A stretch of 6,184 nucleotides of DNA from Oligoflexia bacterium (GTDB lineage: Bacteria > Bdellovibrionota > JAFGOL01), in the NCBI GenBank assembly GCA_016926495.1, contig JAFGOL010000056.1, positions 1 through 6,184 on the forward strand, read 5' to 3'. Below the pieces are notes generated by a model. It made no database searches. It saw nothing but the letters and a program-made list of their open reading frames with translations, and was not told the DNA's origin. This document shows positions 1-6,184 of the stretch, one piece after another (position 1 is the stretch's first letter; each line of letters begins with the position of its first letter). The translations under genes were made by a program, and so were the position numbers.

Positions 1-126
1 AAGAAATGTCCCAACAGTGCCATTCAGGGAAGGATAAAATCCCCTCATTATATTATTGAAGATAAGTGTATTAAATGCGGTGAATGTATCAGCGTTTGCA
101 GGTTTAACGCTATTATTAAGAGGTAA
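1..126 (+). CDS. hydB: NADH dehydrogenase-like (NuoF/HndC/HydB) subunit, C-terminal fragment
   Basis: This is the last 41 codons of a gene that begins before the window; it is read in frame 1 to a TAA at 124-126. The fragment ends a two-cluster ferredoxin domain. It shows a CP pair at residues 3-4, the last cysteine of one cluster, then C23-x2-C26-x2-C29-x3-C33, a full [4Fe-4S] motif. The segment between them, with a Gly-x3-Ser-Pro-His pattern, resembles the C-terminal tail of the flavin-containing HndC/HydB subunit of multimeric [FeFe]-hydrogenases. In that family the subunit carries FMN and the NAD(P)H site and passes electrons to the catalytic subunit. The catalytic gene starts 5 bases downstream, which supports the assignment. 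The FMN and NAD(P) domains are outside the window, so a different ferredoxin-tailed protein cannot be fully excluded. Confidence 0.8.
   Translation, partial: KKCPNSAIQGRIKSPHYIIEDKCIKCGECISVCRFNAIIKR
118..124 (+). promoter_or_regulatory. Ribosome binding site of the hydrogenase gene
   Basis: AAGAGGT lies 7 bases before the ATG at 132 and overlaps the stop codon of the preceding subunit. This supports the ATG start and suggests the two hydrogenase subunits are translated from one message. Confidence 0.6.
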
Positions 127-131
127 CCATA

Positions 132-1850
132 ATGAATATTATTCTGAACGGCAAAAGTGTTGATGTTGAAAAGGGTGAATTGCTTATTGATGTTATCAGG
201 AGGCATGGAATATATGTTCCCACGCTTTGTAATGTTGAAGGGTTATCTCCGAACGGAGCCTGCAGGATGTGCGTCGTTGAAGAAGTCAACAGCGGCCGCC
301 TGGTTACAAGCTGCTCCACCGAAGTACAGGACGGAATGGATATCAGGACCCATTCTCCGTCGGTCCTGCTGGCCAGGAAGACGATTCTTGAACTGCTTCT
401 TGTAAATCATCCTGATGATTGTCTGTATTGTGACAAGAATGAAACCTGCGAGTTAAGGCAACTGGCCTATGAACTGGGTGTAAGGAGCAGGAGGATAGGC
501 GGAAAAAAATACGACTATATGATCGATGCTTCAAGTGTTTCGATAACCAGGGACCCGTCCAAGTGTATACTTTGCGGAAGGTGTGTGCGGGTATGTGACG
601 AGATCCAGGGGGTTTCCGCCATAGATTTTGTAAGACGGGGGAGTTCGGCAATGGTTGCCACGGCTTTTGACCAGGGCTTGAATGTTTCCAGTTGTGTTAA
701 TTGCGGGCAATGCGTGAGAGTATGCCCGACCGGCGCCCTTACGGAAAGCAGCAGTACCAGGGAAGTCGTAAACGCCCTGCTTGCGCCCGATCTTCATGTA
801 GTTGTGCAGTATGCTCCGGCCGTGCCTGTTACTATCGGGGAATGTTTTGGTTATACTTCCGGTACCGATGTTTTCGGGAAAATGAATGCCGCCATGCGGT
901 TGCTGGGTTTTGACAAGGTTTTCAGCACGGCCTTTTCAGCGGACCTCACGGTTATGGAAGAAGCAAGCGAGCTTGTGAGCAGGATAAATAATAATAAAGT
1001 GCTCCCAATGATGACAAGCTGCTCTCCTGCCTGGATTAAGTATGTTGAGCAGTTCTATCCCGACTTTATTCCCAACCTGTCAACGTGCAAAAGTCCCCAG
1101 CAGATGATGGGAGCCGTAATTAAAAGTTATTACGCGCGAATGAATAATATAGATCCCGAAAAGATATATGTAGTCAGCGTTATGCCCTGTACCGCGAAAA
1201 AGTACGAAGCCAAACGGCCTGAAATGCTTAACAGGAATATTGCCGATGTAGACGCGGTAATTACCACGCGTGAACTGGTATCGTTGCTTAAACAATATAA
1301 TATCAGGTTTGATTTACTGGAGCCGGAAGAGGCGGATGAACCTTTCGGGTACAGAAGCTCGGCGGGCAGGATATTCGCCGTTACCGGAGGAGTCGCGGAA
1401 GCCGCGGTAAGGACCGCCTATAAATTAATTACCGGTAAGGAGCTTAAAGATCCGGAAATAAAGCCTCTCAGGTATCTTGAAGGAGTAAAAAGCAGCCAGT
1501 TTAATATTGAAGGTCTTAAAATAAATGTCGCGGTTGTGAGCGGCCTGGGAAACGCCAGGTACCTTCTGGACAATATCAGGGATAAAAAACTTGATTATCA
1601 TTTTATAGAAGTAATGTCCTGTCCCGGAGGGTGTATTAACGGAGGAGGGCAGCCGTACGGTCTGGACAGTGATCGGATCAAGGCAAGGATGGAATCGCTG
1701 TACAGGATAGACGGTGCTTCTGATTTGAGAACATCACATAATAACAGGTTTATAGAAAAGATTTATAAGGAATTTCTTGGTAAGCCGCTGGGAGAAAAAT
1801 CTCATCAGCTTTTACATACTCACTATAAAAAGAAGGATACTAATATATAA
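132..1850 (+). CDS. hydA: [FeFe]-hydrogenase catalytic subunit, HndD/HydA type (group A, M3 architecture)
   Basis: Catalytic subunit for reversible H2 formation, expected in the cytoplasm (no signal peptide or membrane segment) in complex with the upstream diaphorase-like subunit. Domains in order: [2Fe-2S] ferredoxin with C33, C44, C47, C61; a His-Cys3 [4Fe-4S] site with H93, C97, C100, C106; two [4Fe-4S] clusters with C145/148/151/155 and C188/191/194/198; the H-cluster domain; and a small-subunit-like tail (about 515-565) ending in an LLHTHY motif. H-cluster motifs are TSCSPAW (L1, 295-301), MPCTAKKYE (L2, 351-359) and EVMSCPGGC (L3, 493-501). Against Clostridium pasteurianum CpI, as I recall it, residue numbers are offset by a constant 2. 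The proton-relay set is therefore kept as E277, E280, C297 and S317, and K356 is also kept. One oddity is Ser298, which sits where CpI has the cluster ligand C300. At 572 residues it matches HndD and lacks the extra C-terminal [2Fe-2S] domain of Thermotoga HydA. Electron bifurcation is plausible but not shown here. Confidence 0.95.
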   Translation: MNIILNGKSVDVEKGELLIDVIRRHGIYVPTLCNVEGLSPNGACRMCVVEEVNSGRLVTSCSTEVQDGMDIRTHSPSVLLARKTILELLLVNHPDDCLYCDKNETCELRQLAYELGVRSRRIGGKKYDYMIDASSVSITRDPSKCILCGRCVRVCDEIQGVSAIDFVRRGSSAMVATAFDQGLNVSSCVNCGQCVRVCPTGALTESSSTREVVNALLAPDLHVVVQYAPAVPVTIGECFGYTSGTDVFGKMNAAMRLLGFDKVFSTAFSADLTVMEEASELVSRINNNKVLPMMTSCSPAWIKYVEQFYPDFIPNLSTCKSPQQMMGAVIKSYYARMNNIDPEKIYVVSVMPCTAKKYEAKRPEMLNRNIADVDAVITTRELVSLLKQYNIRFDLLEPEEADEPFGYRSSAGRIFAVTGGVAEAAVRTAYKLITGKELKDPEIKPLRYLEGVKSSQFNIEGLKINVAVVSGLGNARYLLDNIRDKKLDYHFIEVMSCPGGCINGGGQPYGLDSDRIKARMESLYRIDGASDLRTSHNNRFIEKIYKEFLGKPLGEKSHQLLHTHYKKKDTNI

Positions 1851-1865: not shown

Positions 1866-3905
1866 ATGAAAATCGGTAACGAGCGCTCAATTGTTTCAAC
1901 CAAGCCGGAAAAGTGCAAGGTATGTTTTACGTGTGTGCGCGAATGTCCCGCCAAGGCCATTAAGATCGTAAACGGCCAGGCCCAGGTTATCGGCGACAGA
2001 TGTATAGGATGCGGATTATGTGTAAAGGTTTGCAGCCAGAAGGCAAAAGAGGTGTTCTCCGATATCGAAGGTGTGGAATTATTACTTTCCGGAAAAGAGG
2101 ATACGGCTGCCATTATAGCTCCGAGTTTCCCCGCGGAATTTTATGAGGATGACTACGGAAAGCTTGTAGGAGCGGTAAGAAAACTGGGCTTTAAGTACGT
2201 TTATGAAGTCGGTTTCGGAGCTGACATAGTGGCCCTTAAATACAAGGAACTTCTTGAGTCTTCCGTACAGGCGTATATTGCCAGCACCTGTCCGGCCATT
2301 GTAGCGTATGTTGAAAAATATTATCCTGATTTAACACCCAGGCTGGCTCCCGTTGTTTCACCTATGATTGCGATGGCAAGGGTTGTAAGAAGAATACACA
2401 AAGGCAAAATTAATATTGTGTTTATAGGTCCGTGCATAGCCAAGAAAGGCGAGAAAGAAAGAAAATTATTTAAGAAGGATGTCCAGTGCGTACTCATCTA
2501 TTCCGAATTAAGGGAATTATTTAAAAAGAAAAATATCGAGATCAATACGCAGGAAAGTTCGGTTTTTGATGAGCCTGTCGCCGCCAAGGGTGGCTTGTTT
2601 CCCCTGAGCAGGGGAATGCTGGAGACTGCTTCAATTCATGAAAACCTGGTTGAAAATAACGTAATTTCGGCAGACGGTAAAATGAATTTCGTTGAGGCTA
2701 TTAAAGAATTCGGAGAAGGGTACCTGAAGACAAAGCTTCTGGATACCTTATGTTGCGAGGGATGCATCATGGGCGCAGGGTTTACGTCAAGATTGCCTTT
2801 ATATAAAAGACGCTATTTTGTGGCTTCATATGTAAGCGATAAACTTGAATCCTTAAATACGGAAGTTTGGCAGAGTAATATAGATACCTACTGGAATGGT
2901 GATTACAGCACGTCCTTCGCCCCTAATGATCAAAGAATTTTTTCTCCTTCTGAAGACAAGCTTAATGATATTTTATTCAGAATGGGTAAGAAAGGCCCGG
3001 AAGACCTTTTAAATTGCGGAGCGTGCGGTTACGCTACATGCGTGGAACATGCCGTGGCTATATATAAGGGCTTCGCGGAAAATGAAATGTGCCTGCCTTA
3101 TACAATAGACAAGTTGAAGGAAACCGTTAATGATCTGGAAAAATCGTATACTGAACTTGAGAGTGTGAAAGAAGCCCTTATTCAAAGGGAAAAACTGGCT
3201 TCCATGGGGCAACTTGCTGCGGGTATCGCCCATGAAATCAACAATCCCCTGGGTATTATACTTGTTTATTCGCATTTACTGCGTCAGGACCTGTCCATGT
3301 TTCCCGAAAGAATTAAAGATGTGGAAATGATTGTTGAACAGTCGGAAAGATGCAAAAAGATTGTGTCCAACCTTTTGAATTTTTCACGGCAAAACAGAAC
3401 ATTGAGGAATCCCACGGATGTAATACAGTTAGTGACACACTGTCTTGACTCGGTTATTGCGCCCGATGATGTTGAGATCAAATTTCAGCATGATGTTCCG
3501 AAATGTATCGTGTATATTGACCAGGACCAGATATTCCAGGTGATAACAAATCTGGTTAACAACGCGGTAGACGCTGTTTGCGATAATGCCGGGAAGCCAA
3601 AAGTTGTAACCGTGTCTGTCCTTGAAGTGAATGCCGAGATCCATATAATCGTTGAAGATAACGGGACGGGTATTTCGGAAGAAAACATGAAAAATATTTT
3701 TGACCCGTTTTTTACCACTAAGCAAATAGGAAAGGGCACCGGCCTTGGTTTGCCTGTCTCTTACGGTATTATAAAAATGCATTCGGGCAGGATATCCGTG
3801 CAATCCGAGCATGGAATGGATAAGCCGACAGGGACAAGGGTACTGGTGGAACTGCCTGTAAAATACAGAGGAGAGTTGAAAGATGAAAAAAATATTGCTG
3901 GTTGA
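1866..3905 (+). CDS. Sensory [FeFe]-hydrogenase domain fused to a histidine kinase
   Basis: A 679-residue, probably soluble protein that likely senses H2 or redox state and autophosphorylates. Two [4Fe-4S] clusters come first (C17/20/23/27 and C46/49/52/56). The H-cluster domain follows, with L1 as STCPA (C142), L2 as GPCIAKK (C190, K193) and L3 as LCCEGC (C296, C300). Next is a four-Cys FeS domain of the Fes (PF04060-like) type, C384-x2-C387-x4-C392 and C409. A predicted coiled coil (about 412-445) leads to HisKA with phosphoacceptor H456 in AHEINNPLG. The ATPase shows the N box around N562-N566, DNGTG at 598-602, FDPFF at 612-616 and GTGLGL at 624-629. The CpI proton-relay positions E279, E282, C299 and S319 become Y126, L129, T141 and A161, and M353 becomes G188, so turnover is probably slow or absent. 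I see no PAS domain. This resembles the kinase-linked group C putative sensors; Thermotoga HydS, encoded with HydABC, is a related case with a PAS tail. The last 23 bases overlap the first receiver gene. Confidence 0.93.
3868..3873 (+). promoter_or_regulatory. Ribosome binding site of receiver 1, inside the kinase gene
   Basis: GAGGAG lies 9 bases before the ATG at 3883, inside the 3' end of the sensor kinase. It supports the start that gives a 23-base overlap, consistent with translational coupling of kinase and receiver. Confidence 0.65.
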
Positions 3906-4266
3906 TGATGATAAGGATTTCCTGATTCAAAAGAAGTTCGAACTTGAACAGGAAGAGTATCTGGTAGAGACATGCTCCGAATCGGGTGAGGCCATTGAGC
4001 ATATCAAAAGGTTTACCCCTGATCTTGTTATTTTGGATCTTATAATGGAGGAGCAGGATTCAGGTTTCGTTTTGTCATACCTGATAAAAAAGGAGAACAG
4101 GGAATTGCCTATTATTATGGTAACATCCGTAACCCAACTGACGGGAATAGACTTTCAGGCGATCATGGAAAATGAAAGGGAATGGATAAAAGCCGATATT
4201 ATTCTCACAAAACCCGTAAGGACCGATCAACTGGTTAGTGAGATAAAAAGGATGGTAAAAGATTGA
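3883..4266 (+). CDS. Single-domain response regulator (receiver 1)
   Basis: A 127-residue CheY-like receiver with no output domain, likely phosphorylated by the overlapping hydrogenase-kinase. The acidic pocket is D8/D9, the phosphoacceptor is D52 in VILDLIM, the switch residue is T81 in MVTS, and the conserved lysine is K110 followed by P111. Two departures from the usual receiver stand out. The loop after the phosphoacceptor lacks the usual Met-Pro step and is one residue longer before its glycine (G61). The distance from T81 to K110 is 29 residues, against 22 in CheY, so the alpha4-beta5 region is extended by about seven residues rich in charge and ending in a Trp (W101). The other single-domain receiver in this cluster shares both features. 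It could act as a phosphate shuttle to the next kinase or bind a partner directly; the target is not visible. Confidence 0.93.
   Translation: MKKILLVDDDKDFLIQKKFELEQEEYLVETCSESGEAIEHIKRFTPDLVILDLIMEEQDSGFVLSYLIKKENRELPIIMVTSVTQLTGIDFQAIMENEREWIKADIILTKPVRTDQLVSEIKRMVKD
4248..4255 (+). promoter_or_regulatory. Ribosome binding site supporting a TTG start
   Basis: AAGGATGG lies 7 bases before TTG at 4263. The next in-frame ATG (4317) would remove the first beta strand and the D14/D15 pair of the receiver, so the TTG is the credible start. Confidence 0.55.
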
Positions 4267-5420
4267 ATAACCTGACTGAAAAAATCAAGGCCCTTATTGT
4301 AGACGACGAAAAAGGTATGTGCCTTGGGACGCAAAGAATACTGGGCGATTTTTCGTTTCCGATAGAGGAATTGGATACGTCCGTGAATTTCGATGTTGAG
4401 TATGTTTGTTCGGGTGCTGACTTTTACAAAGTCATAGAAAACAAGAAATACGACCTGGTTGTAATGGATTACAAGCTTCCCGACGCCAACGGCCTGGAAC
4501 TGCTGGAGTATTTAAACGGTAAAGGCGCTGATACCGGCGTTTTGATGATTACCGCGTACGCCACTTTTGAGACCGCGGTTAAGGCCACCAAGCTCGGGGC
4601 TTATGATTTTATCGCTAAACCTTTCAGCCCGGATGAATTGAAGTATTCCGTAATGAACCTGGTGAAAAGCATTTTGCTGAGCCGTAATGTGAGGAAGTTT
4701 CAGGAGGAGAAAAAGAGAATACGGTTTGAGTTTGTTTCTGTTTTGTCTCATGAGCTTAAATCCCCCCTTAACGCCCTTGAGGGATATATTGACATGATCT
4801 CGAGATATCACGGTAAGATGGATGACAGTGAACTTAAAACGTACCTTGAAAGGGCCAAAACCAGGACCGTCTCAATGAGAAAACTGGTCATGGACCTGCT
4901 TGATCTCACGCGGTTTGAGTCGGGCGCCAGGAACCGAGAATGTGTGGATATCGCTTTTAACGAATTGGTTTCAGAGTCGCTTAATAATATCAGGGAAGAA
5001 ATCAACTCAAGGGGTATTGCGGTTGAAGCTGTTTTTGACGCGGAATATAACATTGTCGCTGACAGGACGGAGATCGAGATGATAGTTAATAATCTGATTT
5101 CAAACTCGGTCAAGTATAACAAACAGGGCGGCAGGGTAATGATAAAAACGGAGAACAAGGACGGAGATCTGCTTTGCGCCGTGTCGGACACGGGTATAGG
5201 CATGACCGAACAGGAACAGACAAGGCTTTTTAAGGATTTTTCCAGGATAAAGAATAAGGATACCGAGAATATACTGGGCAGCGGTCTGGGGTTGTCAACC
5301 ATAAACAAAATAGTATCTCTATATGACGGAGAAATAACAGTGAACAGTAAATATGGCGTTGGTTCCACTTTTACCGTAAGATTAAAAAATATTATTAAGG
5401 AGGTGCCTAATGGCAACTAA
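4263..5420 (+). CDS. Receiver-histidine kinase hybrid (receiver domain N-terminal)
   Basis: A 385-residue soluble protein that begins with a receiver and ends with a histidine kinase, the reverse of the usual hybrid kinase order. The receiver (about 8-135) has D14/D15, phosphoacceptor D69 in VMDYKLP, T97 in MITAYA, and K119-P120. From about 62 on it resembles NtrC-family receivers, with a standard 22-residue T-to-K spacing; the region before strand 2 (about 28-45) looks roughly ten residues longer than usual. A charged helix (about 140-155) joins it to HisKA with H163 in SHELKSPL. The ATPase shows N277 and N281, DTGIG at 309-313 and GSGLGL at 339-344. No sensor, membrane or DNA-binding part is present, so its input is probably phosphorylation of D69. 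Translation starts at TTG, sharing four bases with the stop region of receiver 1. Its kinase may act on receiver 2, whose gene overlaps its end; that pairing is inferred from position only. Confidence 0.92.
   Translation: MNNLTEKIKALIVDDEKGMCLGTQRILGDFSFPIEELDTSVNFDVEYVCSGADFYKVIENKKYDLVVMDYKLPDANGLELLEYLNGKGADTGVLMITAYATFETAVKATKLGAYDFIAKPFSPDELKYSVMNLVKSILLSRNVRKFQEEKKRIRFEFVSVLSHELKSPLNALEGYIDMISRYHGKMDDSELKTYLERAKTRTVSMRKLVMDLLDLTRFESGARNRECVDIAFNELVSESLNNIREEINSRGIAVEAVFDAEYNIVADRTEIEMIVNNLISNSVKYNKQGGRVMIKTENKDGDLLCAVSDTGIGMTEQEQTRLFKDFSRIKNKDTENILGSGLGLSTINKIVSLYDGEITVNSKYGVGSTFTVRLKNIIKEVPNGN
5397..5404 (+). promoter_or_regulatory. Strong ribosome binding site of receiver 2
   Basis: AAGGAGGT is a near-perfect Shine-Dalgarno sequence 5 bases before ATG at 5410, inside the coding end of the hybrid kinase. 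It is the strongest such site in the window and suggests receiver 2 is made in excess over the TTG-started kinase. Confidence 0.7.
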
Positions 5421-5829
5421 AATTTTGTGCATTGACGATGATCAGGATGTTATTAACGTGTGTAAAAAAGTACTTACGCTGGAAGGCTATGATTTTGATC
5501 ATGCTTCTGACGGTGAAGCAGGCTACCGGAAGGCAAAAGACATGAAGCCTGACTTAATTATTCTTGATGTCATGATGGGCAATGATACCGAGGGTTTTCA
5601 TGCGGCTTATAAATTCAGGCAGGATGATGAATTGAAGTATACTCCCATACTCATGATGACATCGGTAAATCAAAAGCTGGACTTTAACTTTAATAAAAAG
5701 AGGGACAGGGAGTTTTTGCCGGTTGATGAATTTCTGGAAAAACCCGTAAACCTGGACATGCTGGTTGTCACGGTTAAAAAGCTGCTGGCACTGAAGAAGG
5801 AGCAGGTAAATATTGATGGTAGCAAGTAG
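5410..5829 (+). CDS. Single-domain response regulator (receiver 2)
   Basis: A 139-residue CheY-like receiver without an output domain. The phosphorylation site is complete: D9/D10, phosphoacceptor D53 in IILDVMM, T84 in MMTS, and K111-P112. As in receiver 1, the usual proline after the Met is missing, one extra residue precedes the glycine (G62), and the T-to-K spacing is long at 27 residues, with a basic stretch (KKRDR, 96-100) leading into F102-L103-P104-V105-D106. A hydrophilic tail of about 15 residues follows the last helix. The gene overlaps the hybrid kinase by 11 bases and the following transporter by 14, so it lies inside the operon. It may be the terminal phosphate acceptor of the relay or a protein-binding output; no downstream partner can be named. 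Confidence 0.92.
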   Translation: MATKILCIDDDQDVINVCKKVLTLEGYDFDHASDGEAGYRKAKDMKPDLIILDVMMGNDTEGFHAAYKFRQDDELKYTPILMMTSVNQKLDFNFNKKRDREFLPVDEFLEKPVNLDMLVVTVKKLLALKKEQVNIDGSK

Positions 5830-6184
5830 CCTTATATCGGCGCTTATGTCCGCCTTTTGCGCCGTTTTGGAGAAAAAGATGTTGTTCTCGGGTGACGTCT
5901 TTGAGTTTTCATTCGGGGTCTCAGTGTGTAACCTGCTTTATACAATACCGCTTGCTTTTATTTATATGCTGTATAACGATGTTACGATTTTCACGTCTTC
6001 AATTCAACTGCTGCTTATTGCCAAGGTTATTTTGGGAGCTTTTGCCTTTCTTTGTGTTATGGGTTCCATAAAGCAGTTACAACTGAGTGCCTCTTTGCCC
6101 CTTCTGCTGCTAACCCCCGCTTTTGTCGCGGTTTTTTCATTCGCTATTTTCGGTACCCGCCTGTCCAAATACCAGGTTTCAGGC
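5816..6184 (+). CDS. DMT-superfamily (EamA-like) membrane transporter, N-terminal fragment
   Basis: The first 123 codons of a membrane protein that runs off the window end. Four hydrophobic segments are visible at about residues 2-19, 33-54, 64-83 and 91-113. The fourth, with S91-A-S-L-P-L, T100-P101 and a following F112-G-T-R-L, matches the end of an EamA half, where a Pro-containing helix is followed by an acidic or basic turn and a short amphipathic stretch. EamA proteins export or import small metabolites through ten helices made of two such halves; the substrate here cannot be told. The ATG at 5816 is chosen because it opens just before the first helix and AAGGAG lies at 5797-5802, though 13 bases is a long spacing; ATG at 5846 is a weaker alternative. 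It overlaps receiver 2 by 14 bases, suggesting co-expression, but a link to hydrogen metabolism is not evident. Confidence 0.8.
   Translation, partial: MVASSLISALMSAFCAVLEKKMLFSGDVFEFSFGVSVCNLLYTIPLAFIYMLYNDVTIFTSSIQLLLIAKVILGAFAFLCVMGSIKQLQLSASLPLLLLTPAFVAVFSFAIFGTRLSKYQVSG

Follow-up and report, generated by a model that had tools for sequence, protein, structure and literature searches.

A histidine kinase linked by a predicted coiled coil to a sensory-type [FeFe]-hydrogenase module in an Oligoflexia bacterium

The stretch of DNA analysed here (the window, 6184 nt, positions 1 to 6,184 of contig JAFGOL010000056.1) comes from a 1.74-Mb draft genome of an Oligoflexia bacterium, which is 75.5% complete. 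It encodes a protein of 679 residues that unites a sensory-type [FeFe]-hydrogenase module with a histidine kinase (HK), the two being linked by a predicted coiled coil. On balance we consider it probable that H2, acting at a likely H-cluster, twists this coil and thereby switches the kinase. The observations behind this reading are the domain order, the conserved ligand cysteines, a linker whose length varies in steps of seven residues, the lack of any PAS match or predicted PAS fold, and the neighbouring genes for REC and REC-HK proteins.

Domain organization of the sensor

The sensor gene and its parts are as follows; residues are numbered within the protein.

1866..3905, + strand: HK-fused sensory-type [FeFe]-hydrogenase, 679 residues (Pfam, homologue search, AlphaFold2)
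1914..2033, + strand: two [4Fe-4S] ferredoxin motifs, residues 17-56, C17/20/23/27 and C46/49/52/56 (Pfam Fer4 families)
2103..2777, + strand: H-cluster domain PF02906 (Fe_hyd_lg_C), residues 80-304 (E=3.5e-49)
2754..2765, + strand: loop L3, CxxC, residues 297-300 (alignment of HK-fused relatives)
3009..3098, + strand: iron-sulfur (FeS) domain PF04060, residues 382-411, CX2CX4CX16C, C384/387/392/409 (E=3e-07)
3093..3230, + strand: predicted continuous signalling helix or coiled coil, residues 410-455, running into HisKA (AlphaFold2, heptads)
3204..3392, + strand: HisKA (DHp), residues 447-509, phosphoacceptor H456 (E=2.2e-13)
3519..3860, + strand: HATPase_c, residues 552-665 (E=6.3e-24)

A preliminary description, made from the letters of the window alone, had named the two [4Fe-4S] motifs, the H-cluster domain, the FeS domain with its four cysteines and a HisKA domain with H456, and the Pfam searches recovered every one of them. 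It had also noted about 30 residues of heptad-like helix before the kinase; this element is confirmed, and the heptad pattern takes in L410 and the further leucines to L438 and continues as far as HisKA.

Conservation was assessed over 165 distinct HK-fused proteins from several phyla, a set drawn from the nearest homologues and from loci found with the sensor as query, in which distant kinds are under-sampled and 1-3 rows are gapped at some positions. The eight ferredoxin cysteines are present in 162-163 of the 165 rows and retained in every row that spans them. C142, C190, C297 and C300 of the H-cluster domain are retained in 164-165 rows, the four cysteines of the FeS domain are present in all 165, and H456, E457 and N460 are invariant. 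Outside the set stand L077 and L086, both missed by the motif filter and with linkers of 47 residues by eye, L084, also missed by the motif filter, and L118, which has a PAS domain and whose kinase histidine the filter missed.

The retention of both ferredoxin motifs would also suit a redox sensor, in which the N-terminal clusters are in equilibrium with ferredoxin or HydABC, the kinase reads reducing power and the H-cluster is a buffer or a relic. That the gene adjoins a likely ferredoxin-using bifurcating hydrogenase speaks for this alternative as well. However, the H-cluster cysteines, together with K193 and G188, are conserved across phyla, which would be needless for a relic, and we regard the redox-sensor alternative as unlikely.

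Absence of a PAS domain between the FeS domain and the kinase

Only about 36 residues separate the FeS domain from HisKA, and PAS domains are about 100 residues long, so that there is no room for one between them, as the preliminary description had claimed. The checks it had proposed, structure prediction and a search for PAS folds, agree with this. No PAS family matched the sensor in Pfam at E<=1. In the AlphaFold2 model (109 sequences, mean predicted local distance difference test (pLDDT) score 86, predicted template modelling score 0.67) the helix of residues 410-478 is unbroken, and between residues 296 and 514 no strand is as long as three residues, two single-residue bridges, at 348 and 404, being all that occurs; residues 305-381 are likewise helical or coil. 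Pfam and the model together thus reject a PAS domain concealed in the linker or in residues 305-381. Fold searches with the whole model returned hydrogenases or the HydA2 subunit of H2-dependent CO2 reductase as the best 50 matches of each search, but these barely cover residues beyond 356 and are neutral on PAS.

As a control we modelled, in the same way, the PAS-type paralogue of locus L007 (3301-5157, - strand; 38 sequences, mean pLDDT 74). Its model has a helix at 415-462 followed by strands at 467-471, 476-480, 529-536, 539-549 and 553-560, which appear to follow a PAS-like order. Because this paralogue escapes Pfam, where it has no PAS match, yet models as PAS-like, Pfam alone is insufficient to exclude a PAS domain. 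Among eight tail-type proteins scanned, six had a PAS match in Pfam (L009, L055, L078, L115, L116, L117) and two, L010 and the L007 paralogue, had none.

A third architecture was seen in L118 (950 residues seen, incomplete), which carries H-domain, FeS domain, PAS, HisKA, HATPase and REC on one chain.

Linker length and coiled coil

Between the last FeS cysteine and the phosphoaccepting histidine (C409 to H456) the spacing is 47 residues in 131 and 40 residues in 34 of the 165 proteins, and no other value occurs. Most other spacings in the same rows are less regular: the number of rows out of step with the mode modulo 7 is 53 for C56-C142, 7 for C142-C190, 16 for C190-C297, 7 for C300-C384, 55 for H456-N562 and 60 for N562-G624. 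The C297-C300 spacing departs in one row, and C27-C46, C46-C56 and C384-C409 are invariant. Within the linker, L410, L417, L424, L431 and L438, whose numbers all equal 4 modulo 7, are L, I, V, M or F in 100% of 131 rows; the 'a'-type positions become mostly polar at 428, 435 and 442.

To count the changes between the two lengths we used a careful tree of 54 rows, picked to span lineages and computed with the linker excluded. On this tree, on which the count rests, the 47/40 state changes five times (bootstraps 5-6), and four of the changes are forced by starred branches. Were indels free to take any size modulo 7, with all residue classes equally likely, four of them would all land on 7 with a chance of about 1 in 2400. 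A linker that is always 47 or 40 residues long, and that has changed by seven residues at least four times independently, supports a register-locked coiled coil. In the LOV kinase YF1, linkers of 7n residues preserve the light response and linkers of 7n+1 reverse it (PMC6798134), and the natural 47/40 record is what would be expected if the polarity of signalling must be conserved. The sensor thus has what marks coiled-coil-linked sensor kinases, a heptad-quantised linker (in all 165 proteins) that continues into DHp helix 1 in the modelled helix. The direct mechanical link proposed in the preliminary description gains support from the quantised linker and its repeated seven-residue changes, together with the lack of a PAS fold.

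The H-cluster site and loop L3

C142, C190, C297 and C300 align with the residues that we take to bind the [4Fe-4S]H cluster in known enzymes, and K193 and G188 are invariant across all 165 HK-fused rows. T141, G188 and L295 occupy the positions of C299, M353 and M497 in CpI, the three that are altered in sensory enzymes (PMC10055695). At the first of them, threonine here, most rows have T, S, A or P and one of the 165 has cysteine; the second is glycine in all 165 and the third leucine in 162.

Loop L3 reads CxxC in 164 of the 165 HK-fused proteins, one residue below the usual CxxxC, which is found in 18 of 19 aligned non-HK rows and in the window's own HydA and is the published form of the P3 motif (PMC11406978). 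C296 is no conserved substitute, since 67 of the 165 rows have F, A or S there. The sole exception among the non-HK rows is P0121, a Bacteroidota PAS-type paralogue with a deletion in L3 and without its first cysteine. The deletion is shared by the P0121 family and is therefore not exclusive to HK-fused proteins. Since the first L3 cysteine is lost in 37 of the 38 rows of this family (replaced by D, N, H or S), a normal H-cluster in P0121-type paralogues seems doubtful.

Distribution of the architecture

Of 7999 candidates scored in a search with residues 1-440, 5737 matched; not all of these need be HK-fused. Hydrogenase and FeS families are found throughout the best 120 of the 5737, kinase domains occur in nearly all of them and a PAS family in none. 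Alignment A1, used for the structure, contains 109 of these 120, and four of them, shorter than 600 residues, were left out; alignment A2, that of the P0121-type paralogues, contains 38 of the 120 proteins of a separate list. Matches of 755-784 residues from a further search lie outside the set analysed.

Two of three genomes of the same family have the same protein, with 56-57% identity. In the third, G002, and in 35 more distant genomes, the matches listed are confined to the kinase region. At E<=1e-45, relatives of the sensor half, whether HK-fused or not, occur in 25 of 377 genomes of the phylum of G041 and in 30 of 395 of that of G042. Because it is spread over homologues and genomes in this way, we consider the architecture an established, conserved kind. 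A quick tree of 108 rows separates HK-fused from non-HK proteins with a support of only 56 and gave long-branch warnings, so that we do not claim a single origin of the HK-fused proteins.

Gene neighbourhood

The other genes of the window are closely spaced or overlapping.

1..126, + strand: 3' end of the upstream gene, likely hydB, with two [4Fe-4S] motifs (by eye; identity inferred)
132..1850, + strand: hydA, bifurcating-type [FeFe]-hydrogenase catalytic subunit (NCBIfam FeFe_hydrog_A6, 809.1 bits, cut-off 765)
3883..4266, + strand: REC, single-domain response regulator (PF00072, 1.7e-16), overlapping the sensor reading frame by 23 nt
4263..5420, + strand: second kinase, REC-HisKA-HATPase (Pfam domain order; neighbour conserved across loci)
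5410..5829, + strand: second single-domain response regulator, REC (PF00072, 3.9e-17)
5813..6184: 5' part of an EamA-like transporter gene, overlapping the last REC gene

The neighbours recur with the sensor. A REC or REC-HK match lies downstream in 49 of 50 HK-fused loci, and HydA lies upstream in 39 of the 46 with at least 1000 nt of upstream DNA. In three loci with long flanks (L005, L006 and L007, from records of Melainabacteria, Deltaproteobacteria and Sphingobacteriia) the order is HydC-HydB-HydA-sensor-REC-REC-HK; because HydB precedes HydA there, the fragment at 1..126 is likely hydB. HydA is likely to be the enzyme that the sensor regulates or reports on, the adjacent REC protein (3883..4266) the likely phosphoacceptor, and the second kinase the likely next step of the relay. 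Whereas HK-fused loci have REC and REC-HK genes next downstream, 13 of 18 non-HK loci have a gene for a SpoIIE-type phosphatase in this place; these are group C/D-like (L009, L055, L057, L059, L078-L083 and L115-L117).

Two observations concern the hydrogenase itself. HydA reads TSCSPAW at window positions 1014-1034, with serine in place of the second L1 cysteine; serine at this position is common in four BfuA sub-types (PMC11406978). On another contig of the same genome (L002) a second HydA adjoins a HydB-like gene, and the genome may therefore have two bifurcating-type hydrogenases.

Signalling mechanism

We favour a conformational signal that passes along the coiled coil to the REC and REC-HK partners. 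HydE, HydF and HydG would assemble the H-cluster in the sensor, and H2 would bring it into a long-lived reduced state, comparable to that of the low-activity HydS enzymes. This would change how the H-domain packs against the C-terminal FeS domain, whose cluster would serve as a structural knuckle rather than accept electrons. The resulting twist of a dimeric coiled coil would reach the DHp helices and set kinase against phosphatase output. The REC proteins and the REC-HK would then receive phosphate, and the HydABC hydrogenase encoded next to the sensor, or its expression, would be adjusted in this way.

The preliminary description had instead proposed that electrons from H2 reach the C384-C409 cluster. 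In such a relay, the redox state of the cluster would move the coil. In favour of a relay, the last cysteine of the cluster directly precedes the predicted helix, and all four are invariant. In TamHydS, however, electron paramagnetic resonance showed no reduction of the C-terminal cluster at 1 atm H2, although the gas did alter the secondary structure (PMC13104023). TamHydS belongs to another group, group D, and thus weakens the case for an electron hop here without excluding it; by this analogy we disfavour the hop and consider the relay quite unlikely.

Several points weigh against signalling by H2 through the coil. The monomer model has pLDDT values of only 53-64 over residues 431-460 of the helix, although this may fit one chain of a dimeric coil. 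Seven of the 46 HK-fused loci with upstream DNA have no HydA match, and no DNA-binding or other output domain lies within the 6184-nt window. The literature searched yielded no experiments on HK-fused members. Proteins with a proven H-cluster have an L3 that is one residue longer, so that a full H-cluster is not assured here, and in the C1 proteins of Hydrogenedentota the authors of one study hardly found H-cluster motifs (PMC11406978); a shortened L3 may be one reason why motif scans miss such sites. Of the maturases, in the window's own genome HydE was not found, HydF is partial, at a contig end, and the only match for HydG was rejected as ThiH.

The last points could also mean that the H-domain carries its [4Fe-4S] cluster only, without a [2Fe] subsite owing to the short L3, and senses O2, CO or cluster integrity. 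The near-universal CxxC, the PAS-type paralogues that share the deletion and keep the first L3 cysteine in only one of 38 rows, and the undetected HydE and HydG are in line with this possibility. Yet K193 and G188 are conserved throughout, the absence of maturases from the window's genome may reflect its incompleteness, and they are found in its relatives: HydE, HydF and HydG are all above cut-off in G002, where the listed matches to the sensor cover the kinase region only, and in G001, which has the sensor, HydE is above cut-off while HydF and HydG are split over contigs. We think it very unlikely that the site lacks the [2Fe] subsite and senses in this way.

A bolder form of the coiled-coil reading is a widespread branch of H2-sensing kinases, with an H-cluster held by a CxxC loop and signalling by pure torque through a heptad-locked coil, with neither a PAS domain nor an exit for electrons. 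We put this forward tentatively and consider it doubtful.

Relation to known systems

The fusion of a group C hydrogenase to a histidine kinase next to an A3 hydrogenase is already published, as BfuT of the sub-type V bifurcating clusters (PMC11406978), and the window has the same combination: a group C hydrogenase with a fused kinase beside an A3 enzyme. By its description BfuT, a group C [FeFe]-hydrogenase with a His kinase domain beside the A3 HydABC, is like our sensor, and its Bacteroidota examples, with a second copy across the operon, resemble the layout of L007. The available part of that account contains neither linker quantisation nor a shortened L3; both features were likewise not seen for such proteins among the open-licence papers listed in the literature searches. 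BfuT was assigned to group C3, of the His-kinase-domain type, whereas by name the kinase link matches group C1 of HydDB, 'histidine kinase-linked (putative)' (PMC5037454).

Within the wider classification, the sensor has the traits of group C (HydS, M2f): an H-domain with four cysteine ligands, though with a different L3 spacing, two N-terminal [4Fe-4S] motifs with a C-terminal CX2CX4CX16C (as defined in PMC8163306), and replacement of C299, M353 and M497 of CpI. What it lacks is the PAS domain that follows the FeS domain in TmHydS, and we therefore file it as a group C-like HK-fused branch, not as TmHydS-type. Group D (TamHydS, M2e) was rejected, as G188 stands at the M353 position in all 165 proteins where this group would have serine or threonine.

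TmHydS (Thermotoga maritima, group C) shares with the sensor the two N-terminal clusters, the H-domain, the C-terminal FeS domain and the replacement of C299 and M353 of CpI, the latter by glycine in both; it differs in its PAS domain, where our sensor has a fused kinase, and in having serine at the M497 position, where the sensor has L295 (PMC10055695). TamHydS (Thermoanaerobacter mathranii) is like the sensor in lacking PAS, in its C-terminal CX2CX4CX16C and in the leucine at the M497 position, but has serine at the M353 position, and a histidine kinase-like ATPase is encoded beside it by a gene of its own (PMC8163306, PMC13104023).

On how sensory [FeFe]-hydrogenases pass on an H2 signal, the authors of the TamHydS study call finding the interaction partner critical (PMC13104023). 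With sensor and kinase on one polypeptide, a single reaction mixture suffices to vary H2, redox state, the length of the linker and the phosphorylation of H456. From the seven-residue rule it follows which alterations of the linker should break or invert signalling, and the shortened L3 is a natural variant for H-cluster chemistry.

On the output side, the REC-helix-DHp-CA order of LvrB, a REC-controlled histidine kinase, resembles that of the second kinase (4263-5420); the available text on LvrB, unlike the system described here, does not mention a hydrogenase sensor (PMC13269768). YF1 and other coiled-coil kinases share with the sensor an input domain joined to DHp by a coil of heptad-dependent length, but the input of YF1 is light at a LOV fold, whereas that of the sensor is an iron-sulfur hydrogenase domain (PMC6798134).
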